Below are positions 1-41,392 of a DNA stretch of 59,233 bases, piece after piece. A program made the position numbers and the translations under genes. The DNA is from Pseudomonadota bacterium. Lineage in GTDB: Bacteria; Pseudomonadota; Gammaproteobacteria; Steroidobacterales; Steroidobacteraceae. Below the pieces are notes generated by a model, which was not told the origin of the DNA, did not search any database, and saw nothing but the letters and a program-made list of their open reading frames with translations. Position 1 is the first letter of the stretch. Every line of letters begins with the position of its first letter. The stretch lies in assembly GCA_021780475.1 (NCBI GenBank), contig JAJXYR010000043.1, forward strand, positions 1-59,233. Reading direction: 5' to 3'.

Positions 1-482
1 GCAATCCGGCGAGCGCCAACTATGGCAAGCCGATCACGCAGTACGTTTTCCGCGGCGCGGTCAAGTCGATCACCAACACCTTCGGCAATCCGAACACGCC
101 GACCGCCTATTCGCCGAAAGTTCAGGCGAACTTGCGGGCGCGCTACGACTGGTCGATGAACGAGTACAACTATTTCGTCCAGGCTGGCGCCGTCTATGTC
201 GGCTCGATGTACAACAATACCAACACCGATCCGACTTTGAATGGCGACAATCCGGCGAATCTGCAGGCGATCAACACGACGCTGTTCCGGTTCGCACAGC
301 CGTCCTACACGACGTATGATGCCTCGTTCGGTGTGGCAAAAGACGCCTGGTCGGTGACGATATTCGGCGACAACCTCAACAACTCCAACGCCAGCACGTT
401 CACGTCGACGGCGCAGTTCATCGAGACGCAGGTGCCGCTGCGGCCCCGCGTGCTTGGTGTGCGCGTCGGCATGAAGTTCTGA
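1..482 (+). CDS. TonB-dependent receptor, C-terminal fragment (5' end outside window)
   Basis: Open from the window edge; beta-barrel C-terminus 'FVQAGAVYVGSMYNN...ASFGVAKDAWSVTIFGDNLNNSNAS...PLRPRVLGVRVGMKF' closely resembles the C-terminus of the intact receptor at 32870-35554 ('...PLRPRVIGVSFGYSF'). The ORF-track start at 132 is internal. Confidence 0.85.
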   Translation, partial: NPASANYGKPITQYVFRGAVKSITNTFGNPNTPTAYSPKVQANLRARYDWSMNEYNYFVQAGAVYVGSMYNNTNTDPTLNGDNPANLQAINTTLFRFAQPSYTTYDASFGVAKDAWSVTIFGDNLNNSNASTFTSTAQFIETQVPLRPRVLGVRVGMKF

Positions 483-2543: not shown

Positions 2544-2561
2544 CCTCTCTCAGGAGTTTCC

Positions 2562-4367
2562 ATGCAGAACAGGCCGGAATGTTTGCCGCAGGGAACGCTC
2601 GCGACGCGGATGATCCGCGTCGCGACCCTAGCCGTCTCCCTGGCCGCGTCCCTCGTCGCGACGGTCGCGTCGGCCGCCGACTTCCATCCCATCAACCCGA
2701 CGATGGCCGATCGCACCGTCGTGCTCGACGGCCGGCATTTGACGATCGGCGAGGTCGTCGATGTGGCCCGCCACGGCGCCAAAGTCGCCCTCAGTCCGGA
2801 AGCCCGACAGCGCTCCGCCGACGCCTACGGCCTGCTGCTCGAAGCGGCACGGGAGGACGTGCCGGTCTACTGGTTCAACCGTGGCTTCGGCGCCGGACGC
2901 GAGCACGCGATCTTCTCCGGCGATCCGACCTCGCGCGACAATAAAGAGCTGCTGACCGCGCGCGAGCTCGCCCAATTCCGCCGCGGCGCGCTCGCCGGCA
3001 TCGGTCCCGAGGTCACGCGCGAAGAGGACGTGCGGGCGATGCTGGTCGTGCGCGCGAACACGATGACCTACGAGGCGGCGAGTCCGGCCTTGACCCAGCG
3101 GCTGCTCGATCTGCTCAACGACCGGATCACGCCGGTCGTGCGCTCGCGCGGCAGCGTGGGCGAGGCGGATCTCGCCCCGCTCGCGAACGTCGCGGGCGCG
3201 ATGGTGGGCGTGGGCGACGCCTATTATCACGGAATCCGCATGCCCGCCGGCGCCGCGCTGCGGCGCGCCGGACTCGCGCCGCTCGCACCCTTCGCCGCCG
3301 ACGACAGCGCGCTCGAGAGTTCGAATGCCTTTTTCACCGGCGAGATGGCCTTGATGGCCTACGATGCGCGCGAGGCGCTGTTCTGGGCGGACCTCGCCTA
3401 CGCCGTCGACCTGAACGGCATGAACAGCAGCATCACGCCGCTCGCGCTGCCGGTGCAGCGCAACCGTCCGTTCAAATGGGTGAACTGGGATGCGGCGCGG
3501 GTGCTCGACATGATGCGCGGCAGCTACCTGTTCAACAAGGACGACAAGCGCATCATCCAGGATCCGGAAAGCCTGCGCGCCTCGTCGATCCGCCAGGGGT
3601 CCGCGTGGCAGAGCTGGACCCAGATGCGCGACGATCTGCTGGTTCAAATGAACTCGTCGGATCACAACCCGGCGGTGTTGGTCGGCGCCTCGCCCGGCGA
3701 TTCCTGGGAGCTGAACACGCCGGAACTGATGCAGTATTACGTCAAGGGCGGACCATTGAGCCATGGTGAGCACGGCTTCGTCCTTTCCAATGCGAACTGG
3801 GATCCCTACCCGCTGGCGAATGACGTGGAAGCGTTCACGATCGCCCTCGCGAACATGGATGTAGCGGTCGCCCAGCGGCTGCTGCGCTTTACCAGCACCT
3901 TCTTCACGGTGCTGCCGCCGCTACCCGACGCGCGCGGCGGCAGCGACTTCAACTCGGCGGCGCTGATGCAGGAAATCGACGGGCTGATCAACCCGGTCCC
4001 GCCCGAGGGCAGCGCCTTGGTCCAGAACGTCGAGGATCTCGAGGCCGGGACCCGGCTGAAGGCCCGTCGCGCGCGTCGCGTCGTCGCCGACACCATAGAT
4101 CTGCTCGCGGAGGACCTGCTGACGGGCACCGAATGGCTCGACATGCGCAAGATCGAGGATTCGAGCCGCAGCTTCGGCCTCGCGCCGACGGCGTTGTGGA
4201 CGGCGTTCCGGCACGCGGTGCCGCTCAAGCCGAACGTGCCGCTGTCCTCGGCGCAAAGCGCGCACGCCGAGGCGGTGGCGTTCATCCGCGGCCATGCCGC
4301 GGAGACGTTCTACGGCGCGCCGCCTCAGGATCACGGGCCGGGACAGCGGCGACACATCGAGCAATGA
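2562..4367 (+). CDS. Aromatic amino acid lyase (HAL/PAL superfamily) homologue with N-terminal signal peptide and without the canonical ASG (MIO) triad
   Basis: Family landmarks 'VYWFNRGFG', 'RGSVGEADLAPLANVAGAMVG', 'IQDPESLRASSIRQG', 'MNSSDHNPAV'; N-terminus 'MIRVATLAVSLAASLVATVASA|ADF' looks like a signal peptide; strong SD 'caggag' before ATG 2562. Confidence 0.82.
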   Translation: MQNRPECLPQGTLATRMIRVATLAVSLAASLVATVASAADFHPINPTMADRTVVLDGRHLTIGEVVDVARHGAKVALSPEARQRSADAYGLLLEAAREDVPVYWFNRGFGAGREHAIFSGDPTSRDNKELLTARELAQFRRGALAGIGPEVTREEDVRAMLVVRANTMTYEAASPALTQRLLDLLNDRITPVVRSRGSVGEADLAPLANVAGAMVGVGDAYYHGIRMPAGAALRRAGLAPLAPFAADDSALESSNAFFTGEMALMAYDAREALFWADLAYAVDLNGMNSSITPLALPVQRNRPFKWVNWDAARVLDMMRGSYLFNKDDKRIIQDPESLRASSIRQGSAWQSWTQMRDDLLVQMNSSDHNPAVLVGASPGDSWELNTPELMQYYVKGGPLSHGEHGFVLSNANWDPYPLANDVEAFTIALANMDVAVAQRLLRFTSTFFTVLPPLPDARGGSDFNSAALMQEIDGLINPVPPEGSALVQNVEDLEAGTRLKARRARRVVADTIDLLAEDLLTGTEWLDMRKIEDSSRSFGLAPTALWTAFRHAVPLKPNVPLSSAQSAHAEAVAFIRGHAAETFYGAPPQDHGPGQRRHIEQ

Positions 4368-5659
4368 CCGCCAGAATCCAGGCGCAGCCTCCGGCGCTGC
4401 GTGTTCGTTGGCGCATCTTCGCGTTTCTGTTCGCCTTCGGTTTGCTCGCGTACGTCCAACAGAAGAGCATCACCGTCGCCGCGGCGCGCATCATGCCGGA
4501 CCTGTCCTTGAGCCAGCAGCAAATCGGCTGGCTCGAACAGGCCTTCGTGATCGGCTACGCCCTGTTCCAGATGCCGGGCGGCCTGTTCGGCCAGCGTTTC
4601 GGCGCCCGGCTCACGTTCGTGATCATCGGCCTGATGGCCTGTGGCGCGATGCTCGCGACGGCGGCGGGACCGATGCTGCTCGGCGGGCGCGCGTTGTTCG
4701 TCGAACTGCTCACCGTCCAGTTGCTGCTCGGCGTCGCGCAGGCCGCCATTTTTCCGGTTTCCGCCGGTGTATTCGAGACCTGGTTTCCGCCGGGCCGCTG
4801 GCCCGCCGTCCAGGGTCTACAGACGATGGGCCTGCAACTCGGCGCCGCGATGACGCCGCCGCTGATCGCCTTCTTGATGCAGGGCTTCGGCTGGCAACGC
4901 GCGTTGTACTGGACGACGCTGCCGGCGCTCGGCGTGATCGGTTGGTGGGCCTGGTATGCGCGCAATGACCCCGCGCGCCACCCGGCGATGACCGCGGCGG
5001 AACTCGCCGAGATCGGCACGCACGTTGCAGCCGCCGCGGTGAAGCCGGTCGGCGCCGGACGGCTGCTGCGCCTGCTCGGCGACCGCAACGTGCTGTTGCT
5101 CGCGACGTCCTACCTGTGCATGAATTACGTGTTCTATCTGCTCGCGAACTGGGTGTTCCTGTACCTGGTGCAGGAGCGCCATTTCTCGATCCTCGAGGGC
5201 GGCTGGCTCGCGGGGGCGCCGCCGCTCGCGGCCGCGGTCGGTGCGGGTCTTGGCGGCCTGCTGACCGGGCTTGCCTGCCGGCGATATGGCACACGCGCCG
5301 GCTTTCGTCTGGTACCGCTGATCGCGCTGCCCGCGGCGGGCCTGTTGTTGCTGGTCGCAGTGAATTGTGCCAACCCGTTCCTGGCCGTCGGCACGCTCGC
5401 GCTCTGCTACGGCTTTGTCGAACTCACGGAGGGGGCTTATTGGGCGGCGGCGATGACGGTCGGCGGCGGCGATACGATGGCGGTCAGCGGCTTCATGAAC
5501 ACCGGCGGCAATCTCGGCGGCATCGTCGGTATTCCGCTGATCGCCTACCTGTCCGGCCACCAGGATTGGCATGCTGCCTTCCTGGTCGGTACCGGCTTTG
5601 CGTTCGTAAGCGCCGCGGCCTGGCTCGGCATCGATGCCGGCCGAACCACGGCGCGCTGA
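4364..5659 (+). CDS. MFS transporter
   Basis: Multiple TM segments, MFS-like N-terminus 'MTARIQAQPPALRVRWRIFAFLFAFGLLAYVQQKSITVAAARIMPDLSLSQQQIGWLEQ'; ATGA overlap with the upstream gene (ORF-track start 4133 is upstream of the likely start). Confidence 0.85.
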   Translation: MTARIQAQPPALRVRWRIFAFLFAFGLLAYVQQKSITVAAARIMPDLSLSQQQIGWLEQAFVIGYALFQMPGGLFGQRFGARLTFVIIGLMACGAMLATAAGPMLLGGRALFVELLTVQLLLGVAQAAIFPVSAGVFETWFPPGRWPAVQGLQTMGLQLGAAMTPPLIAFLMQGFGWQRALYWTTLPALGVIGWWAWYARNDPARHPAMTAAELAEIGTHVAAAAVKPVGAGRLLRLLGDRNVLLLATSYLCMNYVFYLLANWVFLYLVQERHFSILEGGWLAGAPPLAAAVGAGLGGLLTGLACRRYGTRAGFRLVPLIALPAAGLLLLVAVNCANPFLAVGTLALCYGFVELTEGAYWAAAMTVGGGDTMAVSGFMNTGGNLGGIVGIPLIAYLSGHQDWHAAFLVGTGFAFVSAAAWLGIDAGRTTAR

Positions 5660-5668
5660 CGGGGCGGT

Positions 5669-7018
5669 TCAGCGCCGGATCGGCGGTGCGAGCGACTTTA
5701 CCGATGCGAACAGCAGCGTTCGCAGGTCCGCGTCCGTGTGCGACGGCGTCGGATTGCCGGCCGGCGCGACCGTGGGATCGATCTGCGTCATCAGCACTGC
5801 GACGAGTCCGGTGGCCGGGCTCACGATCCAATGCGTGTCGAAGATGCCGCCCCAGGAATAATCGCCGTCCATACCGGCGAGCGGCGCGTGCCGCGCGTCG
5901 ATTTCCACGCCGACCCCGAGTCCGTATCCGAGTCCGATCGAGTCCGGGCCAAAGAAGTCGAACAGAGCGTCGGGCGCGACTTGATTGTGCGTCATCAGGC
6001 CGACGGTGACCGGCGACAAGATCTGGTGGCCGTCGAGACTGCCGCCGTTCGCGAGCATCTGGGCGAAGCGCAGATAGTCACCCGCGGTGGAGATCAATCC
6101 GCCGCCGCCGGATGGCCAGACCTTGGCATCCGTGGGATCGGTGAGCCAGTCGGCGTGGCTCGTCCGCAGCCCGCCGTCGTTGTCTCGACGATACATCGTC
6201 GCGAGCAGCGGCGCGTCCGCGGCCGGCAGATAGAATCCGGTCGAATTCATGTTCAGCGGCGTGAAGATCCTCTGCCGCAGGAATTGCGCAAACGGCATGC
6301 CCGAGACGACCTCGACCAGGCGGCCGAGCACGTCGTCGGCATAGCTGTAGCGCCAGCCGGCGCCCGGCTGATAGTAAAGCGGCATCGCCGCGATCTTGCG
6401 GACATTGGCGGCGAGCGTCGCGTCCGCATCGGGCCGCATCTTGCCGTAGATCGCGGCGAGCGGCGTCTTCATGTCGAATCCCGGCAGATAGCCGAGACCG
6501 CTCCGATGGGTCAACAGGTCGCGTATCGTGATGCCGCGCTTCGCCGGTTCCGTCAGGACGTTGCCGTGGGAGTCGAGGCCCGTGAACACGCGAGGATGCG
6601 CAAACTCCGGCAGAAACCGCGCGATCGGGTCGTCGAGTTGGAACAGCCCCTGCTCGTAGAGCATCAGCACCGCGACGCTCGTGATCGGCTTCGACATGCT
6701 CGCGATCCGAAAGCGCGTGTCCAGCGTCATCGGCGCGCGGCTGCGCAGGTTGCGGTAACCGACCGCGCTCGCATCGACGAGCTTGCCGTCGCGCGCGACC
6801 ATCAGCACGTAACCGGCGGCGAGGTGCCGCTCGGATTCGATCTTGAAGAATTCGTTCATATGCTGCAATCGCGGACCCGACAGGCCTAGCGCCGCGGCGC
6901 TTGCGCGCGGCAGCGGATCGGCGGGCCGCTCCGGGGACGCGACGGCAGTGCGGACAGCGCCGGCCAGCAGGGTCAGGGCGGCCAGGACGGTCGGCGCAAT
7001 CGGTCGATTGGATGTCAT
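5669..7018 (-). CDS. Serine hydrolase, beta-lactamase / EstB-like family, exported
   Basis: 'FRIASMSKPITSVAVLMLYEQG' (SxxK), 'YSYADDVLG' (YxN-like region), N-terminal signal peptide. Confidence 0.85.
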   Translation of the reverse strand: MTSNRPIAPTVLAALTLLAGAVRTAVASPERPADPLPRASAAALGLSGPRLQHMNEFFKIESERHLAAGYVLMVARDGKLVDASAVGYRNLRSRAPMTLDTRFRIASMSKPITSVAVLMLYEQGLFQLDDPIARFLPEFAHPRVFTGLDSHGNVLTEPAKRGITIRDLLTHRSGLGYLPGFDMKTPLAAIYGKMRPDADATLAANVRKIAAMPLYYQPGAGWRYSYADDVLGRLVEVVSGMPFAQFLRQRIFTPLNMNSTGFYLPAADAPLLATMYRRDNDGGLRTSHADWLTDPTDAKVWPSGGGGLISTAGDYLRFAQMLANGGSLDGHQILSPVTVGLMTHNQVAPDALFDFFGPDSIGLGYGLGVGVEIDARHAPLAGMDGDYSWGGIFDTHWIVSPATGLVAVLMTQIDPTVAPAGNPTPSHTDADLRTLLFASVKSLAPPIRR

Positions 7019-7033
7019 GAAGCCCTCGATCGG

Positions 7034-7552
7034 TTAAAAATCGGCGATGGTCGCCCGGATCCATTCCAGCAGGTGGTTCGCGTATGCGCGATCCACCAGC
7101 AGCAGCACTTCGGCCTCGGCGAGTCCGACCACGGTGACCGTTATGTCGGCGAAGCGCCCGGTACGGGCCTCCCCGGTCCGCGGGATCGACGCGGCGGAGC
7201 CCAGACGGCACAGCAGATCCCGCGTGCGCGCGCCGGCGATCGTCAGCGCCAGGATGCCGCCCGTTTGCACGACGACACAGGCGTCGCGGGAATCCGCAAG
7301 ACTCCGCCGCAGCGCTTCGATCGGGGCCCCGTCATCGCACAGGACCCAGCACTCATTCGGGGAGCGCCAGGCGAGCAGGTACGGGGTGTCGCCGACGGCG
7401 AATCGGCCGCGGACGCTGCGCTGCTCCGACGGCAACGCCGCGCCGAGCAGAGCGCCGATGCGCTCGCCGAGCGCATCGGCATCGAAATACCGGAGCGCGG
7501 CGACGTGCACGCCGCGGTCGAGTTCGACGGTGATTCCGGCCGCGCTATCCAT
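7034..7552 (-). CDS. soxG: Sarcosine oxidase gamma subunit family (copy 1)
   Basis: Last gene of a B-D-A-G ordered operon; 'LLAWRSPNECWVLCDDGAPIEALRRSL...CVVVQTGGILALTIAG'; start chosen at ATG 7552 (overlaps soxA end). Confidence 0.82.
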   Translation of the reverse strand: MDSAAGITVELDRGVHVAALRYFDADALGERIGALLGAALPSEQRSVRGRFAVGDTPYLLAWRSPNECWVLCDDGAPIEALRRSLADSRDACVVVQTGGILALTIAGARTRDLLCRLGSAASIPRTGEARTGRFADITVTVVGLAEAEVLLLVDRAYANHLLEWIRATIADF

Positions 7553-10448
7553 GCAGTCGGCTGCCGGCGGGATCGATGAACGGGGCTTTGACGACGATCG
7601 CATCGATCCGCTCTCCGAGGTGATGGACGCGGATGCGCTCGCCGAGCCGCGATGAGCCGCGCGCAAGCATGCCGAGGGCGACCGGTGCGCCGAGTTCGGG
7701 ACTCCAGAAGCTGGACGTGACGTGGCCTTCCGGCGTCGTCGGCGGATCGCTCGCGGCGATCTGCGCGCCGGTCGGCAGCTGGGTGCGGCCGTCCGCCGGC
7801 GACAAGGCGACCAGCTGGAAGCGCTGCGGATCGAGGGCCGCCGGACGCAGCAGCGAACGCCTTCCGACGAAGTTCGCCGTCTTGGCGCCGATCGCGCGTC
7901 CGAACCCGATGTCGCCCGGCAGTGTCGTGCCATCGGTGTCGGTGCCGATATGGATGTAGCCTTTCTCGGTTCGCAGGATCTCCAGCGCCTCGATGCCATA
8001 GAGCGCGCCGCCCGCGGCCGCGGCCGCCGTCCACAGGCGGTCGAGCACGGCGGTGGTTGCGTCGACGGGAAGGTTGATTTCGTAGGACAACTCGCCGGTG
8101 AAGCTCGCGCGCAGCACGCGCAGCGGCACGTCGCCGAGCGCGCTCTCCCGCATCGTCATGTGCTTCATCGAGCCCGGCGACAGGCCCGCATCGAATCCCA
8201 CCGCGGCCATCACCTCCCAGGACTTCGGTCCCGACAGCGTCACGTTGCCGTAGCGGGAGGTCACGGGGGTCACGAACACCCGGAGGTTCGTGTACTCGCA
8301 TTGCAGCCACTCTTCGAACGCGGACGCGGTGCGTTCCACGCCGGCGCTCGTCGTGTTGACCCAGAAATGGTGGTCGTCGAGGCGCGCGACGATGCCGTCG
8401 TCGACGACGATGCCGTTCTCGTTCAACAGCAATCCATATCGCGCCTGTCCGCGCGCGAGATTCGACATGGTGCCGACGTACATCAAATCCAGAAATTCGG
8501 CCGCATCCGGACCCCAGACCTCCAGTTTGCCGAGCGGCGAGCCGTCGAACACGCCGAGCGAGCGCCGCACGGTGCGCGCCTCGCGCTGCGCGGCGGCGTG
8601 CAAGGTCTCCCCGCCGACCGGGTAGGCCGCGGGCCGGTTCCAGTTGCCGAACTGTTCGTAGAGCGCCCCGTGCGCGGCATGCCACTCGGCGGCCGGCAAG
8701 TGTTTCAACGGCCTGTAAAGACGCCCGACCCGGCGCCCGACGAGTGCGCCCAAGCTTGCCGGCACGAACGGCGGTCGGAATTTCGTGGTGCCGACCTCGG
8801 CCGGTTCGCGACCGGTCAGTTCCCCCATCAGCACGAGCGCGTTGACGTTGCTGGTCTTGCCCTGGTCGGTCGCCATACCGGTGGTCGTGTAGCGCTTCAG
8901 GTGTTCCACGGAGCGGTAATTCTCCAGCGCGGCCAGACCCACGTCGCCGGCCGCGACGTCATTTTGCAGGTCGACGAACTGCTTGCCGCGTGCATCGGCG
9001 ATTCGGGTCGATGCGAGGGAACGCCCCGCGCCGCACGGTGTCGCCGACGGCACGGTGAATCCGAGTGCGAGCGCGCGTCCCACATCCAGCGCATGGGCCA
9101 CGGCCGTGTCCCGCGAAAATACGCCGGCGCAACCGCCGACACTGACGATGCCGGGAGCCGCGCCGTCCGGCACGAACATCGCGCCATCCGCGAGCCAGCG
9201 CAAGCGGCCTCCCGCCTGCGAATGCAGGTGAACCGCCGGCGCATGGCCGCCGGCGCTCAGGATGAGATCGCAATCGAAACGTTCGGGACGGGAACCATGG
9301 CCGTCGGCCGCCACCGCGACGCAGCCGCGTACCGCGCTGGTGCCTAGCACCTTGTCGATGCCGGTGTTCGGAAGTACCCGGACGCCGTCGACGTGCGCGC
9401 CGATGTCGGCGTGCGCGCGGCGATCGAGCAAGGCCACGATCTCGACCCCCGCGGCGCCGAGCGACGCGGCAACCTGGTAGGCCGAATCGCTGTTCGCGGC
9501 GATCACCGCGCGCCGGCCACAGGCGACGCCGTAGGCATGCGCATATTCGTCGGCGGCGCCGGCGAGCATCACGCCCGGCCGATCGTTGTCGGTGAACAGC
9601 ATCGGCCGCTCGAAGGACCCCTGGGCCGACACGATCGAGCGCGCGCGTATTTTCCACAGCCGCTCGCGCAGCACGCCGCGGGGGCCGCGCGGGCCGCCGG
9701 TCAGCCGTTCGGTCGCGCACAGGAGATTGTGGTCGTAGACGCCGAACGCGACGCTGCGGGTCAGGATCCGGACACCCGCCTGCGCCGCTTTGGCCGCGAG
9801 CGCGTCGAGCTCACCGTCGTCGCGCCAGCCAAGCGCTCCGCCGGTCGCGGTGCCGGCGGTGATCAGGATGGTGCCCGCCCCCGCCTGCGCCGCCGCGACG
9901 GCGGCCGAGAGGCCGGCGATGCCGCCGCCCGCGACCACGACATCGGCCTCCGCGCAGACCTCTTCGTAGCGGTCGTCGTCGGCTTCCAGCGAGGCGCGTC
10001 CCAGGCCGGCCATGCGGCGGACCATCGGTTCGAACAGGTGCCAGTTGGGCCACTTGAACGTCTTGTAGTAAAAGCCCGCGGGCAACAAGGGCGCGAACCA
10101 GCCGTTCACCGCGCCGAGATCGAAGCCGACGCTCGGCCAGCAATTGACGCTTTCGGCGACCATGCCCTCGGCGAGCTCGACGACGGTGGCGCGCGCGTTC
10201 GGCGTGCGGTGACGGCCGTCGATCAAGTCGACGATGGCGGTGGGTTCCTCGAGACCGCAGGAGAATATGCCGCGCGGCCGGTGGTATTTGAAACTCCGCC
10301 CGACGAGCTGCACGCCGTTCGCGACCAGCGCCGAGGCGAGCGTGTCGCCTTGCAATCCGGTATAAGGGCGGCCGTTCCACAGGAATGACAGCGTCCGCTC
10401 CCGGTCGATGCGCGAACCCCTGGGCGCCGCGAGCCGTCGTCCGCTCAT
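7545..10448 (-). CDS. soxA: Sarcosine oxidase alpha subunit family (copy 1)
   Basis: 'LSFLWNGRPYTGLQGDTLASALVANGVQLVGRSFKYHRPRGIFSCGLEEP', FAD motif 'VVVAGGGIAGLSAAVAAAQAGA', C-terminal GCV_T domain 'YGIEALEILRTEKGYIHIGTDTDGTTLPGDIGF'. Start placed at ATG 10448. Confidence 0.93.
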   Translation of the reverse strand: MSGRRLAAPRGSRIDRERTLSFLWNGRPYTGLQGDTLASALVANGVQLVGRSFKYHRPRGIFSCGLEEPTAIVDLIDGRHRTPNARATVVELAEGMVAESVNCWPSVGFDLGAVNGWFAPLLPAGFYYKTFKWPNWHLFEPMVRRMAGLGRASLEADDDRYEEVCAEADVVVAGGGIAGLSAAVAAAQAGAGTILITAGTATGGALGWRDDGELDALAAKAAQAGVRILTRSVAFGVYDHNLLCATERLTGGPRGPRGVLRERLWKIRARSIVSAQGSFERPMLFTDNDRPGVMLAGAADEYAHAYGVACGRRAVIAANSDSAYQVAASLGAAGVEIVALLDRRAHADIGAHVDGVRVLPNTGIDKVLGTSAVRGCVAVAADGHGSRPERFDCDLILSAGGHAPAVHLHSQAGGRLRWLADGAMFVPDGAAPGIVSVGGCAGVFSRDTAVAHALDVGRALALGFTVPSATPCGAGRSLASTRIADARGKQFVDLQNDVAAGDVGLAALENYRSVEHLKRYTTTGMATDQGKTSNVNALVLMGELTGREPAEVGTTKFRPPFVPASLGALVGRRVGRLYRPLKHLPAAEWHAAHGALYEQFGNWNRPAAYPVGGETLHAAAQREARTVRRSLGVFDGSPLGKLEVWGPDAAEFLDLMYVGTMSNLARGQARYGLLLNENGIVVDDGIVARLDDHHFWVNTTSAGVERTASAFEEWLQCEYTNLRVFVTPVTSRYGNVTLSGPKSWEVMAAVGFDAGLSPGSMKHMTMRESALGDVPLRVLRASFTGELSYEINLPVDATTAVLDRLWTAAAAAGGALYGIEALEILRTEKGYIHIGTDTDGTTLPGDIGFGRAIGAKTANFVGRRSLLRPAALDPQRFQLVALSPADGRTQLPTGAQIAASDPPTTPEGHVTSSFWSPELGAPVALGMLARGSSRLGERIRVHHLGERIDAIVVKAPFIDPAGSRLHG

Positions 10449-10711
10449 CGGGGCGCGGGCTCGGTGATCGCGTACACGGACAAGATCTCGTGCGTCACGG
10501 TATGCCGGGCGACGTTGAACCAACGGCCGCAGCCCTGCGCATGGCGCCAGCGCTCCAGGTGCACGCCCTTGGGATTGTCGCGGAAGAACAGATAATCTCC
10601 CCATTGCTGATCGCTCGCCTCGAGCGGAGGGCGCAGCAGGTGGCTCGCGCCGCCGCAGACGAATTCGCTCTCGTCGCGCCTGCCGCACAAAATACAGGGA
10701 ATCTGCATCAT
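10445..10711 (-). CDS. soxD: Sarcosine oxidase delta subunit family (copy 1)
   Basis: 'MQIPCILCGRRDESEF...QQWGDYLFFRDNPKGVHLERWRHAQGCGRWFNVARHTVTHEI' with CxxC and H/C zinc ligands. Confidence 0.92.
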   Translation of the reverse strand: MMQIPCILCGRRDESEFVCGGASHLLRPPLEASDQQWGDYLFFRDNPKGVHLERWRHAQGCGRWFNVARHTVTHEILSVYAITEPAPR

Positions 10712-10733
10712 CGCCGTGAAGTTCCTCGTGCGC

Positions 10734-11987
10734 TCAATGCGCGATGCCTGAAGCCGCCGCTTCATCGATCAAGCGGCCGGTGACGAACCGGGAGAGCGCG
10801 AACGGCTCGGCGAGCGGATGATTCTCGCCGGTCGCGAGAACATGCGCGAGCGTCCAGCCCCCGACCGGGATGCCTTTGAATCCGCCCGTGCCCCAGCCGC
10901 AATTGATGTACAGGCCTGGCACGGGCGTCGCGCCGATTATCGGACTCGAGTCGTGCACCACGTCGACGATGCCGGCCCATTGGCGCAGCATTTTCAAGCG
11001 TGCGTACGCCGGGAACAGCGCGAGCACCCCCGCGAGAATCGACTGGGTGACCGCGAAGCTGCCGCGCTGCGCGTACGAGGGGAACAAGTCGAGCATCGCG
11101 CCGATGACCAGTTCTCCCTTGTCCGACTGGCTGAGATAGGCGCCCGTTCCCGGCGAGAGCACGACCGTGTCGAGCACCGGCTTCAGGGGCTCGGACACCA
11201 TCGCCTGCAGTGCGTAGCTAGTCACCGGCAGACGGAAACCCGCCAGATTCGCGAGTACGCTGCTGTGCCCTGCGGCGGCGATGCCGACGCGGTCCGCGTT
11301 GATCCTGCCGCGCGTGGTGTCGACCCCGACGACCCGGCCGCCCTCCTGAACGAAGCCCTGTACCTCGCAGTTCTGGATGATGTCGACGCCGAGCGCAGAG
11401 GCCGCGCGCGCGTACCCCCAAGCGATCGCGTCGTGCCGGGCCGTCCCGCCGCGCCGCTGCGTGAATCCGCCGAGCACCGGGATGCGCGCCTGCGGGGACA
11501 TGTCGAGGCCCGGCACCATCGCCGCCACTTCGTCGCGGCTCAGAATCCCCGCGTCGATGCCGTTCATGCGCATCGCATTGGCCCAGCGCGACATCGCGTC
11601 CAGATCATGGCGGCTGTGTGCGAGCAGCACGAGGCCACGCTGGCTCAACATGATGTTGAAATTCAACTCGGCGGACAGGCCTTCGTAGAGCTTCAGCGAG
11701 AAGTCGTACAGGCGGGCGCTTTCGGGATACAGGTAATTCGAGCGCACGATGGTGGTGTTGCGGCCGGTGTTGCCGCCGCCGATCCACCCGCGCTCGATCA
11801 CGGCGACGTTGTTCAATCCATGATTCTTCGCGAGATAATAGGCCGTGGCGAGGCCGTGACCGCCCCCGCCGACGACGATCACGTCATAGGCGGCCTTCGG
11901 GGCGGCGTCGGTCCACGCCGGCGACCAGTTCCTCTGGCCGGAGAATGCGCCGCGCAGCAGCGACCAAGCGGAGTAACGATTTTGCAT
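10734..11987 (-). CDS. soxB: Sarcosine oxidase beta subunit family (copy 1)
   Basis: '[24 protein letters not shown]', '[23 protein letters not shown]', '[14 protein letters not shown]' (His consistent with covalent FMN site). Confidence 0.94.
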   Translation of the reverse strand: MQNRYSAWSLLRGAFSGQRNWSPAWTDAAPKAAYDVIVVGGGGHGLATAYYLAKNHGLNNVAVIERGWIGGGNTGRNTTIVRSNYLYPESARLYDFSLKLYEGLSAELNFNIMLSQRGLVLLAHSRHDLDAMSRWANAMRMNGIDAGILSRDEVAAMVPGLDMSPQARIPVLGGFTQRRGGTARHDAIAWGYARAASALGVDIIQNCEVQGFVQEGGRVVGVDTTRGRINADRVGIAAAGHSSVLANLAGFRLPVTSYALQAMVSEPLKPVLDTVVLSPGTGAYLSQSDKGELVIGAMLDLFPSYAQRGSFAVTQSILAGVLALFPAYARLKMLRQWAGIVDVVHDSSPIIGATPVPGLYINCGWGTGGFKGIPVGGWTLAHVLATGENHPLAEPFALSRFVTGRLIDEAAASGIAH

Positions 11988-14087: not shown

Positions 14088-16472
14088 TCAGAATCGATAG
14101 CGGATGTGAACGCCGAACACACGCGGTTCATTCGTCGTCTGGCGCTTGTCGTAGTTGTAGGTGTTCACGAACACGACCGCGCGCGTGTTGTCCAGGTTCG
14201 TGATGTAGGCCTCGACGTTCCACACATGGTCCGGCGTGCGCCAGCCGGCGCGCAGGTTCGCGATATTGAAAGCGGGCTGCAGCGAACGCGTGTCGGCGCG
14301 CAGGCTGCTCCACATCGCGCCGGTATGGGCGATGTCGTACTGGACGTAACCGATCAAGTTCGGGCGGATCGGCGCTTCGTAGCGCGCCGAGGCGCTCGCC
14401 TTGAAGTACGGCACGAACGGCAGGCGCTCGCCGGGCAGCACGACGTAGTTGGCATTCTGATAGGTGTTGCTCGTCAGGCGCGAGTCGTTATAGGCGAGCG
14501 ACATCGACAGCGTCAGGCCCGCTACGGGGCGCGCGTCGACGTTCGTCTCCATGCCGTAGACCCGGGCGTCGCCGATGTTCGCGTTGAACGTCGACGGTGA
14601 GATCGCGAGGTCGTAGACCGCGGTCTGATACTTCTTCCACGGCATGTAATAGGCGGCGCCGTTCCAGCGGTAGCGTCCTTCGTCGAACAGCGCCTTCCAG
14701 CCGAGTTCATAGCTGTCGAGCGTGTCGGGCGAGAACGTCGCGGGCACCAGGGGATTGCCGGCCGCCGACGTGTTGAACCCACCGTCGCGGAAGCCCTGCG
14801 CGAAGGAGAAGTAATACAAGGTGTTCGGCGTCGCCTGGAAGTTGACGCCGGCCTTGTAGTCGACCTTGGACGAGGAACCGCTCTCGACCGGAGTAGGCAC
14901 CTTCGGCTGGTAGTAATATCCCGCCCAGGCGCTCGATTGGGACACGCGCGAGCGGAAATCGCGCATGCCGACCGTGACGCTCCAGCGCTTGCCGAGATCC
15001 TGGGTCAGTTCACCGAAACCCGCGACCTGGTGATTGTCCTGGCGCGAAACATTGCTGTACCACTCCTGCGGCAGCGGCGTTCCGCCGTACTGGGCGATGT
15101 AATAGGACGCCTGGCTGCCCTGGAAATCGATGCCGGGCATGTCGTAGAACGAAGAGTAATCGTCCTTGGTCTGTTCGTAATACAAGCCGACGGTCCAGTG
15201 GGTGCTGCCGCCTTGCTTGGACTGGAGCCGCACTTCGTGCGACCAGCGATTGATCTGGTCATGGTAATCGTAGTACATCGTCGGCACGTTGCACCCGGAG
15301 AAGGTTGCGGGCGTCGTCGTGGGGTCGTAGACCTGACAGGCAACCGACTGCACGGTCGCCGGCGTCACGGACGGCGTGTTGACGTACTGGACGTACTCCG
15401 AATACTCGTTGATCTGATGGTTCGAGCGGCTGAAATAGCCGCCCGCGTAGATCAGGTCGCCGATGCCGACGTCGCCGTGGACCGTCAAGGACATCATCCG
15501 GTTGTAGCGTTCCTGTGCCTCCGGACCGAAACGGGCGACGTTGCGCGGACCGTTGACGCTCGGATTCTGATCCCAGGCGCCGCGGATCTTCTGGTGCTGG
15601 AAATCCCCCGACAGCGTCGCTGACCAATCGTCGCCGAATTTCTGGAGCAGCGCGACGCGGCCGCCGGCGAACAGTTCGCGGTTGTAGTTGTTGCCCGCCC
15701 ACTCGGCGTTCGTGCTGGTCGTGCCGTTGACCCAATTGCGCGTCTCCAGCAGGTTGTTGATGAATCCGCCCTTCTTCACGTAGAAGCCCGACACGCGCAG
15801 CGCCGACGTGCCGGCCGCGAGCGGCAGATTCAAGAATCCCTCCACGCTTTCGTTACGTTCGCCGCCGTCGATCTGGCCGCCGTCGAAATCCATGCCGCCG
15901 CTCAGTTTGGCCGGATCGGGCTTGTTGGTGATCAGGCGGATGGCCCCGGACATGGCTCCGGCCCCGTAGAGCGTGCCTTGCGGACCGTTCAAAACCTCGA
16001 CGCGGGCGATGTCGTAGGCGTGCAGATCCGGGATGCCGCCGAAATAGCTGAGCGGTTGTTCGTCGAGGTAATAGCCGGTGGTCGACGTGTTCGAGTTGTT
16101 CGGCGTGCTGCCGTCCGAAACGCCGCGCATGAAGAACTGCTGGTAGCCGGGACCGATGCTGATGAACGAGACGGTCGGCGCCTTGGCGGCGAAATCCTCG
16201 AATTGGGTGATGCCGAGGTTCTGCAGGTCCTTCGTGCCGAACACGTCGATGCTCTCCGGCACTTTCTGCAGGTCCTCGCTGCGCTTGCGCGCCGTGACGA
16301 CGATCTCGGACAGGCTGTCGCCGGCCGCCGGGCCGTCGGCGGCCCGCGCGGCCGCGATCCCCGCGGTTCCGGAACCGGACAGGATGGATGCGATCGCGAG
16401 CGACAACGCGCAGTTCCTGCGGTCGCGGCGCGACGGTCCGATCGTCAATATGTCGTCGGCGACTTTCTTCAT
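14088..16472 (-). CDS. TonB-dependent receptor
   Basis: 'LSEIVVTARKRSEDLQKVPESIDVF' TonB box/plug, 'RVEVLNGPQGTLYGAGAMSGAIRLITNKP', C-terminal 'VFGVHIRYRF'. Confidence 0.93.
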   Translation of the reverse strand: MKKVADDILTIGPSRRDRRNCALSLAIASILSGSGTAGIAAARAADGPAAGDSLSEIVVTARKRSEDLQKVPESIDVFGTKDLQNLGITQFEDFAAKAPTVSFISIGPGYQQFFMRGVSDGSTPNNSNTSTTGYYLDEQPLSYFGGIPDLHAYDIARVEVLNGPQGTLYGAGAMSGAIRLITNKPDPAKLSGGMDFDGGQIDGGERNESVEGFLNLPLAAGTSALRVSGFYVKKGGFINNLLETRNWVNGTTSTNAEWAGNNYNRELFAGGRVALLQKFGDDWSATLSGDFQHQKIRGAWDQNPSVNGPRNVARFGPEAQERYNRMMSLTVHGDVGIGDLIYAGGYFSRSNHQINEYSEYVQYVNTPSVTPATVQSVACQVYDPTTTPATFSGCNVPTMYYDYHDQINRWSHEVRLQSKQGGSTHWTVGLYYEQTKDDYSSFYDMPGIDFQGSQASYYIAQYGGTPLPQEWYSNVSRQDNHQVAGFGELTQDLGKRWSVTVGMRDFRSRVSQSSAWAGYYYQPKVPTPVESGSSSKVDYKAGVNFQATPNTLYYFSFAQGFRDGGFNTSAAGNPLVPATFSPDTLDSYELGWKALFDEGRYRWNGAAYYMPWKKYQTAVYDLAISPSTFNANIGDARVYGMETNVDARPVAGLTLSMSLAYNDSRLTSNTYQNANYVVLPGERLPFVPYFKASASARYEAPIRPNLIGYVQYDIAHTGAMWSSLRADTRSLQPAFNIANLRAGWRTPDHVWNVEAYITNLDNTRAVVFVNTYNYDKRQTTNEPRVFGVHIRYRF

Positions 16473-37284: not shown

Positions 37285-39384
37285 TCAGTAAGGCGCGTCC
37301 ACGTCGCCCATCGCGACATAGACACTCTTCAATTGCGTGTAATGCTCGATCGCCGCGCGGCCGTTCTCGCGCCCGATCCCGGACAACTTGTAGCCGCCGA
37401 ACGGCAATTCGATCGGCGTGACGTTGTAATGATTGATCCAGCAGGTGCCGGCCTGCAGGCGCGCGATCACCCGGTGGGCGCGCGTCAGGTCGTTCGTGAA
37501 GACGCCGGCCGCGAGGCCGAATTCGGTGGCGTTGGCGCGGGCGATCACGTCCTCCTCGTCCTCGAAATCCAGGATGGACATCACCGGACCGAAGATCTCC
37601 TCGCGCACGATCGCCATGTCGTCGTGGCATCCGTCGAATACCGTGGGTGCGACGAAAAAGCCGTTCGCGAGATCTCCGTCGGTCACGCGGCCGCCGCCGG
37701 TGATCACGCGCGCACCCTCGGCGCGGCCGCGGGCGATGTAGCCCAGGACCTTGTTCAAGTGCGCTTCACTGGTGAGCGGGCCGATCTGGGTGGCTGGATC
37801 CAGCGGATCGCCGATGCGCATGGCCGCGACGCGCGCGGCCAGGCGTTCGAGGAACGCCGCCTTGATGGACCGATGCACGAAAACCCGGGTCGCGTTCGAA
37901 CAAACCTGGCCGGTCGAATAAAAGTTCGCGAGCAGCGCTCCGCCGACCGCATTGTCCAACTTGGCGTCGTCGAAGACGATCAGCGGCGACTTGCCGCCGA
38001 GTTCCAACGTCACGTACTTCAGTGTCTGCGCCGCATCGCTCATGACGGCCTTTCCCGTCCCCACTTCGCCAGTGAGGGAGACCTTGCGGATTCTGGGGTG
38101 GCGCGTCAGCAGGCGGCCCGTGTCCGCGAACCCTTGCACCACTTGAAAGACCCCGCGCGGCACACCGGCCTCGAGAAAGATCTCCTGGAGCTTGACCGCG
38201 CTCAAGGGCGTGATCTCCGCGGGCTTGAATATCATTGCGTTGCCGCAGGCGAGGGCCGGCGCCGCCTTCCAGCAGGCGATCTGCAGCGGATAATTCCACG
38301 CGCCGATGCCGGCGACGACTCCGAGAGGCTCGCGCCGCGTATAGCCGAAGGCCTGCGGCCCGAGATCGATGTGCTCGCCGGCGAGGCTTTGCGCGAGGGC
38401 GGCGAAATACTCGATGCATTCCGCGCCCGAGATGACGTCGACGACGCGGGTCTCCTGGATCGGCTTGCCCGTGTCGCGGGTTTCCAGTTCCGCGAGTTCA
38501 TCATTGCGCTCGCGCAGCAATGCCGCCGCGCGCCGCAGCACGCGCGCCCGCTGCGCACCGGGCCAGGATGCCCATTCCGTCTGGCCGCGCGTCGCGGCCG
38601 CAACGGCGGCCTCGATTTCATCGACGCCGGCAACGGTCAGGTACTCGAGCACGGCGCCGGTCGTCGGATTGACCGTCGCGAAGCGTTCACCGGCCGCCGG
38701 CGCGGCGGTCGGCGCACCGGACAAAGCCACGCGCGGCGCCGCGTCCGCGGTGGTCGTGTTGTCCCGCAGGCGGCCATCGACGAAGGCGGTGAGCAGTGCC
38801 CGGGCCCCTTCGCTGTCGGCCTCGCGCCATTCGGACAAGGCCGCACGCAGCCAGACGCCGTCGATCATCGCCGCGATCATCGACGCGATGCTGTGGGCCT
38901 GCGCGGGGGGCACTAATTTCGCGAGCGACAGACGCAGCGTCGACAAGGTGCGCCGCTGATACACGGATTGGACCCGGTACAAACCCTTGAGCTGCAAGGC
39001 CTGTCCCCAGAAGGCCAGCCAGGCCGTTCCGGTGCGCCGGTCGAACTCCTGCGGTGCAAGATTCGCGTCGATCACCGCCTGAATGCGGCCGCGCGGCGTG
39101 TGCGCCAGGCGCAGTCGCGCACGCACCAGGTCACCGACGCGGCGGGCGAGCGAGCGGAACGCCGCGACGAGCAGACCATCCTTGTCGCCGAAATAGTGCG
39201 CGACCAGCCCGGGTGAGACGTTCGCGCGCGCCGCGATTTGCGCAAGGGTCGTGCCAGTGAATCCGACTTCCGCTAGGCTGTCGATCGTGACGTCGATCAG
39301 CTGGCGCCGGCGCATGTCTTCGACCGGTTCGCGCGATTTATCGTTGCGTGGTGTTGAGTGAGTATTCAATTTTACGGTCCTCAT
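37285..39384 (-). CDS. Fusion ORF: BetI-type TetR repressor (N-terminal) + betaine aldehyde dehydrogenase BetB (C-terminal)
   Basis: One uninterrupted 699-aa ORF: '[56 protein letters not shown]...[38 protein letters not shown]' (BetI), then '[22 protein letters not shown]...[34 protein letters not shown]...[15 protein letters not shown]...[17 protein letters not shown]' (BetB). Confidence 0.92.
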
Positions 39385-39484: not shown

Positions 39485-41392
39485 GTGAGCGCAGACCAGA
39501 TCACGTTAAACGCTTATTCAAACTGGCGCATCAAGGTGCCATCATGCCGCTCTCACGGCCGCCGGGTCAAGCCCCGCACGCGTCGGTTCGAGCGCTTCGC
39601 CATCGCATTCGCCGCGCTGTTTTCCTTGGCGCTCGCGAGCGTGGCGCAGGCCGTCGTCGACCCGCCGTCGTGCCGCACGGTGCGTTTCTCCGACGTCGGT
39701 TGGACCGACGTCACCTCGACGACCGCGATCGCGAGCGAACTGCTGTCCCGCCTCGGCTACACGCCGACCGTCACGGTCCTGTCGGTTCCGGTTACGTTCG
39801 CCTCCTTGCGCAACAAGGACCTCGACGTGTTCCTCGGGAACTGGATGCCGACCCAGGAAGCCGACCGGCATCAATACGTCGCCGACGGATCCGTGGTGGT
39901 TCTGCGGCCGAACCTCACGGGGGCCAAATACACGCTCGCGGTGCCCGCCTACACCTACGACGCGGGCTTGCGCAGCTTCGCGGACATCGAACGTTTCGGC
40001 GCGCAGCTCAATCACGTCATTTACGGGATCGAACCCGGCAACGACGGCAACCGCACCATCCTGAAAATGCTGAAGCAAAATCTGTTCGGCCTCGGCAACT
40101 TCCAATTGGTCGAGTCCTCCGAGCAGGGCATGCTGTCCCAGGTCGCCCGCGCGTTTCAGGCGAAACAGCCGATCGTCTTCCTCGCGTGGGAACCGCATCC
40201 GATGAACATGCGCTTCGACCTGCGCTATCTGAACGGCGGCGACGCGGTCTTCGGGCCGAACTTCGGCGGTGCGACGGTCTACACCGTCACGCGCGCGGGC
40301 TATGCAGCCCAATGCCCGAATGTCGGCCATCTGCTCGAAAATCTCCAATTCACGCTGCGCGGCGAGAATCAGATGATGGATGCGATATTGGACCGGCACA
40401 TGCAGCCGCGCGCGGCGGCCGCGGCCTGGCTGAAAGCCCATCCCCGGGCCGTGTCGGCCTGGCTCGCGGGCGTTTACACCGTCGACGGCAAGCCGGCGAC
40501 GGACGCGCTGGCGGACGCACCCCGGCGGCTCGGTCCGCGCGGCATCGAGCAGTGGATCACGAGCCACAAGATTCCGGTAGGCGACATGATGGCGGTCGCG
40601 ATCGACGCCACCAAAAAGCACGGCACGCTGTTCTTCGACGGCGTATCCACGGTGATCTCCTCCACGGTCAACGATCTAACCCGCCTGCTCGAGGTCGTGC
40701 CGGCGCTGGTGTTCATCGTCGGCGCGACGCTGCTGTCCTATGCGCTGCGCCGTTCCTGGGGCATCGCCGCCTTCGTCGGCATCGCCTTGTTGTTCATCTT
40801 GAATCAAGGCTATTGGATCGCGACGATGGAGACGCTGTCGCTCGTGATCGTTGCGACGCTGCTGTCGACGGCGATCGGCGTGCCGCTGGGAATCGCCGCC
40901 GCCCACCGGCCGAGGCTGTTCGCGGCGCTGCGGCCGGTGCTCGACCTGATGCAGACCTTGCCGACCTTCGTGTACCTGATTCCGACGCTGGTGCTGTTCG
41001 GACTCGGTGTGGTGCCGGGATTGATCTCCACGGTGATCTTCGCGCTGCCCGCGCCGATCCGCCTCACCCACCTCGGCGTCTCGTCCGTGCCCAGGCCCTT
41101 GATCGAGGCCGGCGAGGCCTTCGGGGCGACGCCGATGCAGCTGCTGTGGAAAATCGAGCTGCCGAGCGCGGCGCCGACGATCATCGCCGGTGTCACCCAA
41201 TGCATCATGCTCAGCCTGTCGATGGTGGTGATCGCGGCGCTCGTCGGCGCGGGCGGGCTCGGCGTGCCGGTCGTACGCGCGTTGAACACGGTCCAGGTTG
41301 GCATGGGATTCGAGGCGGGCTTCACCATCGTGCTGCTCGCGATCATCCTCGACCGCGTCAGCCGTCCCAAGGAACCGGGAGCGCCGCGATGA
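39485..41392 (+). CDS. Fused glycine-betaine/choline ABC transporter: N-terminal substrate-binding domain (ChoX/OpuAC-like) + C-terminal permease (ChoW/ProW-like)
   Basis: Binding domain 'TVRFSDVGWTDVTSTTAIASELLSRLGYTPTV...LDVFLGNWMPTQEAD' followed in frame by permease 'VPLGIAAAHRP...PVLDLMQTLPTFVYLIPTLVLFGLGVVPGLISTVIFALPAPIRLTHLGV...EAFGATPMQLLWKIELPSAAPTIIAGVTQCIMLSLSMVVIAALVGAGGLG'. Confidence 0.9.
   Translation: MSADQITLNAYSNWRIKVPSCRSHGRRVKPRTRRFERFAIAFAALFSLALASVAQAVVDPPSCRTVRFSDVGWTDVTSTTAIASELLSRLGYTPTVTVLSVPVTFASLRNKDLDVFLGNWMPTQEADRHQYVADGSVVVLRPNLTGAKYTLAVPAYTYDAGLRSFADIERFGAQLNHVIYGIEPGNDGNRTILKMLKQNLFGLGNFQLVESSEQGMLSQVARAFQAKQPIVFLAWEPHPMNMRFDLRYLNGGDAVFGPNFGGATVYTVTRAGYAAQCPNVGHLLENLQFTLRGENQMMDAILDRHMQPRAAAAAWLKAHPRAVSAWLAGVYTVDGKPATDALADAPRRLGPRGIEQWITSHKIPVGDMMAVAIDATKKHGTLFFDGVSTVISSTVNDLTRLLEVVPALVFIVGATLLSYALRRSWGIAAFVGIALLFILNQGYWIATMETLSLVIVATLLSTAIGVPLGIAAAHRPRLFAALRPVLDLMQTLPTFVYLIPTLVLFGLGVVPGLISTVIFALPAPIRLTHLGVSSVPRPLIEAGEAFGATPMQLLWKIELPSAAPTIIAGVTQCIMLSLSMVVIAALVGAGGLGVPVVRALNTVQVGMGFEAGFTIVLLAIILDRVSRPKEPGAPR

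Follow-up and report, generated by a model that had tools for sequence, protein, structure and literature searches.

Organization of the locus

The window, that is the whole stretch of 59,233 nucleotides that was analysed, comes from a genome of the family Steroidobacteraceae and contains, at positions 2562-4367 of the forward strand, a gene encoding a PF00221 lyase without the residues that form the MIO group. This assignment is based on a PDB match (see below) and on the PF00221 profile, which matches with 305 bits (cut-off 27.3) over its positions 1-454 of 466. The frame 2562-4364 is translated into 601 amino acids and two starts are candidates: ATG 2562, for which the motif AGGAG read upstream (2552-2556, forward strand) may be the ribosome-binding site, and ATG 2610, which yields 585 amino acids and a compact signal peptide. 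The export signal is retained with either start. It is represented by the signal-peptide-like segment MIRVATLAVSLAASLVATVASA (2610-2675, forward strand; longer if the start is 2562), with a predicted cleavage before AD. The Sec-type N-terminus noticed in the initial annotation is kept by most relatives of the enzyme (the clade described below): a crude rule, requiring a hydrophobic N-terminal segment and an AxA-like site, is passed by 66 of 72 members, while four of the six failures are near the threshold and two look truly signal-less. Export of the window lyase is likely from these features. Characterised histidine and phenylalanine ammonia-lyases (HAL and PAL) are cytosolic.

The lyase gene is preceded on the same strand by a TPR-sulfotransferase gene (546-2543; PF13469, 176 bits) that ends 18 bases before ATG 2562, and it is followed by a gene for an MFS transporter of the anion:cation symporter type (4364-5659, forward strand; PF07690, TIGR00893) whose start overlaps the lyase stop in the sequence ATGA (4364-4367). 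The short gap and the overlap suggest that the three genes form one operon. Further upstream lies the 3' end of a TonB-dependent receptor gene (3-482, forward strand), which clusters with receptors found beside other members of the clade. On the reverse strand are found a beta-lactamase-fold serine hydrolase with a signal-like N-terminus (5669-7018; PF00144), relatives of which occur near the lyase in loci L004 and L006, and heterotetrameric sarcosine oxidase-like genes (gamma-like, alpha and beta; 7037-11987). TIGR01372 reaches 1052 bits in these genes, below its cut-off of 1164, TIGR01373 scores 663 bits, above its cut-off, and the gamma-like gene was assigned by position only.

The sarcosine oxidase-like genes open a large region (7037-58550) devoted to the catabolism of choline, carnitine, glycine betaine, dimethylglycine and sarcosine. 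It contains two SoxAB sets, PurU, a GbdR-like regulator, BetA, a choline ABC transporter, a carnitine 3-dehydrogenase, a BKACE-like enzyme and a GbcA-like oxygenase. Two possible fusions, each in a single frame, were observed: a TetR/BetI-like start joined to a betaine aldehyde dehydrogenase (37288-39315, 676 amino acids), and a choline-binding protein joined to the permease (39626-41389, 588 amino acids).

Active-site motifs and absence of the MIO triad

The alignment with the HutH protein of the same genome reveals that the sequence GSVGASGDL is replaced in the window lyase by GSVGEADL (residues 197-204, 3150-3173, forward strand): a single Glu (E201) stands for Ala-Ser and the motif is one residue shorter, D203 being kept. 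The initial annotation had described the triad as replaced and shorter by one residue, and the Glu proved to be invariant in the 66 aligned clade sequences, none of which contains GASGD. An Ala-Ser-Gly equivalent elsewhere in the protein, which by the initial annotation would have refuted its reading, was sought over the whole window lyase with the motif [ACT][SC]G (ASG-, CSG- or TSG-like) and none was found. MIO therefore cannot form in the known way and, as had been proposed, the chemistry must differ from that of HAL and PAL. The idea of an ordinary histidine, phenylalanine or tyrosine ammonia-lyase (HAL, PAL or TAL), in which the triad would lie at another place or cyclise in a variant way, can appeal to the PF00221 membership and to HAL-like scores below the cut-offs; it is contradicted by the sequence and hardly credible, given the missing triad, the curated cut-offs for HutH, PAL and aminomutase that are not reached (171 against 539 for HutH, the others lower) and the presence in the genome of a separate canonical HutH with GSVGASGDL. 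A pseudogene or an assembly error was also considered and is excluded by 66 related intact frames with an invariant site.

The letters and coordinates first given are right, and the flanking family motifs are present: the Tyr loop VYWFNRGFG (residues 102-110, 2865-2891, forward strand), where Y103 occupies the position of HAL Tyr53, the motif QDPESLR (residues 333-339, 3558-3578, forward strand), which keeps Arg339, and NSSDHNP (residues 364-370). Glu in place of the usual Tyr of QDxYSLR, also pointed out initially, is confirmed as Glu336 at the position of HAL Tyr280 and is shared by 64 of the 66 clade sequences. Three other forward-strand motifs were located by alignment: SSNA (3318-3329), which matches the S-x-N-A of ergothionase where HAL has N-G-T-Q; NANWDPYP (3789-3812), specific to the clade, with Trp413 at the position of HAL Phe329; and VEDL (4029-4040), of which Glu491 is the Glu conserved in HAL and ergothionase.

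Phylogenetic position

The best PDB match of the window lyase is the Treponema denticola ergothionase 6s7j (phmmer E-value 5e-34, profile E-value 2e-64), and the AlphaFold model (mean pLDDT 86.6) also finds ergothionase as the best fold match (Foldseek E-value 7e-27). Ergothionase converts ergothioneine into thiourocanate and trimethylamine. The identity between the window clade and the T. denticola enzyme is of about 24%. In the phylogenetic tree the clade forms a fully supported group (100/100) with a long stem of 2.65 changes per site, localized on the ergothionase side and apart from HAL (99/95); a MIO-less group, named C, is placed beside HAL. The novelty that the initial annotation saw in a MIO-less member has to be restricted, because ergothionase is already known as a PF00221 enzyme without MIO (PMC13405746). 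The missing MIO is explained by this kinship and the window protein is not a new kind of enzyme. What is new is the clade itself, an exported and mis-annotated variant for which NCBIfam and Pfam contain no name.

A second group of MIO-less proteins (group B) comprises sequences from Burkholderia (L078), Paraburkholderia, Sinorhizobium meliloti, Polaromonas and Paracoccus saliphilus (loci L078, L079, L069, L070 and L080) and is nearer to the T. denticola ergothionase than the window clade is. In P. saliphilus the signal-bearing, MIO-less group B lyase (L080:5911-7599) comes directly after hutI-hutH-hutG-hutU, an arrangement that would suit a betaine substrate converted to an intermediate of the histidine pathway. 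On the S. meliloti plasmid pSymA, the group B gene (L069:9947-11587) is near a gene annotated as dimethylsulfoniopropionate lyase (14262-14930) and a peptide-type ABC transporter. A third MIO-less PF00221 group (L081:5992-7476 and, on the reverse strand, L050:10860-12371) displays GSIGAGDL or GSIGAADL and an NTG loop and has no signal peptide; the L081 gene is flanked by an ornithine cyclodeaminase-family gene on one side and a PhnD-like gene on the other, and a PhnD-like gene also occurs near MIO-less lyases of the other two groups.

Distribution and conservation of the clade

Relatives sharing 48-74% identity were detected at 64 loci in a scan of genome contigs, and every one of them comes from Proteobacteria. 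The hosts are Steroidobacteraceae and other Gammaproteobacteria, Mesorhizobium, Labrys, Sphingomonas and Acetobacteraceae. The clade is rare, as it occurs in 5 of 147 genomes of the order and in 2 of 399 genomes sampled across the phylum, the window genome being included in both counts. In addition to Glu201, the residues Tyr103, Arg107, Gly200, Asp203, Gln333, Asp334, Arg339, Trp349, Asn364, Asn369-Pro370, Asn412-Trp413-Asp414 and Glu423 are invariant in the 66 aligned sequences. Tandem or nearby duplicates were observed in L044 (9773-11551), L052 (2241-4019), L016 (9862-11535), L013, L014, L025 and L058. Some second copies have an altered site (GGTGEADG in L044 and L052) or an altered loop (VYGLNRG), which suggests more than one substrate in the clade.

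Association with ergothioneine catabolism

The ergothioneine pathway comprises ergothionase, thiohydantoin desulfurase, thiourocanate hydratase, ErtD and ErtE. Its genes were identified here through NCBIfam names and curated cut-offs. The pathway was reportedly reconstituted by Beliaeva et al. in 2021 (cited in PMC9732360). In Sphingomonas formosensis (L056) one strand carries, in this order, the clade lyase, thiohydantoin desulfurase (596 bits, cut-off 440), thiourocanate hydratase (990 bits, cut-off 930) and an MHS transporter, and the opposite strand carries ErtE (581 bits, cut-off 520) and ErtD (763 bits, cut-off 600), so that every known step of the pathway is present except a recognised ergothionase. 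In an alphaproteobacterium (L044) the desulfurase, hydratase and transporter genes are followed by two tandem clade members, then by an ammonium transporter, a GcvT-like gene, a trimethylamine monooxygenase (832 bits, cut-off 675) and the start of a TMAO-demethylase-like gene; enzymes for both ergothionase products are thus present. The L052 locus, found in another assembly, almost duplicates that of L044, and the two MAGs are near-identical. In Burkholderia arboris (L078) a group B lyase stands in for the clade member, beside the desulfurase, the hydratase, the transporter and the beginning of ErtD.

The genomes of L044, L052 and L056 contain no PF00221 proteins other than clade members and, in S. 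formosensis, one HAL. The clade member is therefore the only candidate ergothionase in two lineages, and from this gene content clade members very probably act as ergothionases in S. formosensis and in the alphaproteobacterium. Of the active-site positions compared between the window lyase and the L056 protein, nearly all carry the same letter.

These observations also bear on the binding role that the initial annotation had considered. A catalytically dead periplasmic protein, binding or sensing betaines or aromatic amino acids, would fit the missing MIO, the predicted export and the neighbouring TonB-dependent receptors and transporters. Such a protein would not be expected to keep Tyr103, E201, D203, Q333-D334, R339 and E491 invariant or nearly so, nor to stand where two ergothioneine clusters have their single lyase; we thus find a binding-only role unsupported and quite improbable.

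Thiourocanate hydratase is nevertheless found over its cut-off in only 3 of the 43 clade genomes (5 of 399 in the phylum) and is missing at this level from the other 40. The window genome (92% complete) contains neither a thiourocanate hydratase over the cut-off, the urocanase of its hut cluster being the only related enzyme, nor, over the cut-offs, a trimethylamine monooxygenase or a TMAO demethylase; it has six MTTB-family genes. In this organism the lyase may consequently act either on ergothioneine, the pathway being left incomplete, or on a different betaine.

Neighbourhoods of the other clade members

Neighbourhoods were established from a codon-based gene call, after discarding the shadow ORFs of a first clustering. 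In several Gammaproteobacteria a TonB-dependent receptor and a TPR-sulfotransferase precede the clade member, which is followed by a phosphonate-binding-like protein, a desaturase-like protein and a ProP-type MHS transporter. The co-occurrence with TPR-sulfotransferase and MFS genes, which the initial annotation had proposed to check, holds in the nearest relatives: a TPR-sulfotransferase is beside clade members in 11 loci, and an MFS gene 78-80% identical to that of the window follows the lyase in L003 and L004. Genes for the catabolism of methylated amines and ergothioneine are more informative neighbours. Genes for choline sulfatase, TauD, FolD, aldehyde dehydrogenase and dimethylglycine-dehydrogenase-like proteins are repeatedly found close by; the lyase of Sphingomonas oleivorans (L036) adjoins sarcosine oxidase, PurU and FolD, and two MTTB-family methyltransferases are near that of L042. 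From the copy numbers in the same genomes, a dimethylglycine-dehydrogenase/SoxA-like gene would be expected near 0.61 of the 38 loci and a choline sulfatase gene near 0.08; the observed counts are 9 and 4, but the significance is inflated, as shared ancestry is not taken into account. A point against the function proposed below is that the loci of Mesorhizobium and Labrys showed no recognisable marker of methylated amines in the vicinity.

This context lends some weight to a cofactor-free C-N lyase of the same fold that expels something other than trimethylamine, for instance an N-methylated amino acid or an amine with one or two methyl groups, or to an isomerase. The ert-linked members would in that case be exceptions with a specialised role. 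The window neighbourhood favours the oxidation of dimethylglycine and sarcosine over that of trimethylamine, haem-dependent N-demethylase-like genes are found near L016, L038 and L047, and most clade genomes are without thiourocanate hydratase. We nevertheless consider this alternative unlikely, since the active-site letters of the window lyase match those of the ert-linked L056 protein, and the ert-linked members fall in two different subclades of the tree, so that the activity is not restricted to one odd branch.

Proposed function

We propose, with a probability of roughly 60%, that the window protein belongs to the ergothionase class as a C-N lyase that is exported and needs no cofactor, and that it would perform in the periplasm an acid/base elimination on a betaine and release trimethylamine. 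Its assignment to the class of exported, cofactor-free trimethylammonium lyases is moderately secure, and we regard the case for such an activity in the clade as strong. By homology, Tyr103, as the probable base, would remove the proton beta to the nitrogen, Arg339 would hold the carboxylate of the substrate and trimethylamine would leave without electrophilic help, while E201 and D203, at the former place of MIO, may hold the cation or protonate the intermediate. Trimethylamine, in contrast to ammonia, leaves readily by itself, which would make MIO unnecessary. The ert-linked members probably act on ergothioneine; in the window organism the substrate would be either this compound or a different trimethylammonium acid. 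A broader view, which we hold only tentatively, is that the clade consists of periplasmic enzymes that split betaines, that took over independently the role of the known ergothionase in ergothioneine catabolism, and that in most hosts, including that of the window, cleave other natural trimethylammonium acids (e.g. hercynine, tyrosine betaine or hypaphorine) imported by TonB-dependent receptors. Our search of the literature on MIO-less lyases beyond ergothionase, hypaphorine catabolism and the catalytic residues of ergothionase found nothing useful.

These genes almost certainly do not encode the histidine or aromatic amino acid ammonia-lyases that their annotations name. If the proposal is true, a second enzyme family degrades ergothioneine and related betaines in soil Proteobacteria, in the envelope and not in the cytosol; if the broader view also holds, soil bacteria would make trimethylamine outside the cytoplasm by an undescribed route. 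Searches for ergothionase built on the Burkholderia sequence and on annotation (as in PMC13405746) would miss the clade, which also provides a clean way to test why an enzyme can do without MIO when a tertiary amine is the leaving group.

Comparison with known lyases

The window lyase shares with the histidine, phenylalanine and tyrosine ammonia-lyases the fold, the Tyr loop and the QD..S.R and NP motifs, whereas their Ala-Ser-Gly, His83, Asn195 and Tyr280 are missing or changed in it and kept by the HutH of the same genome. Group B is MIO-less and signal-bearing like the window clade, and the ert genes next to its Burkholderia member are those that accompany the clade lyase in S. formosensis. 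Group B differs by the motif QDPLSFR and a separate branch in the tree, with identities of 24-33% to the window clade and of 36-39% between its best members and the T. denticola ergothionase.

The ergothionases of T. denticola (6s7j/6s7q) and of Burkholderia sp. HME13 are similar to the window lyase in the PF00221 fold, the absence of MIO, the Glu of G-E-[GA]-D, the Tyr, S-x-N-A, QDPxS-R and the Glu of VED/IED. The NRG loop after the Tyr is alike in the Treponema enzyme, including the Arg at position 107, which is Thr in HAL. The window lyase differs from ergothionase by its separate clade, by the export signal (the solved Treponema chain is without one) and by Glu in place of Leu in QDP-x-S. 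The Lys of 6s7j (about residue 383), which we take to be catalytic in ergothionase, is replaced by Phe463 in the window lyase and by Tyr in most clade members, which counts against the proposed function; it is present in most group B proteins and in one clade paralogue (L044:9773-11551). Finally, the window clade is distinguished from ergothionase by the Trp-Asp-Pro-Tyr motif and by extra invariant Trp and Arg residues.
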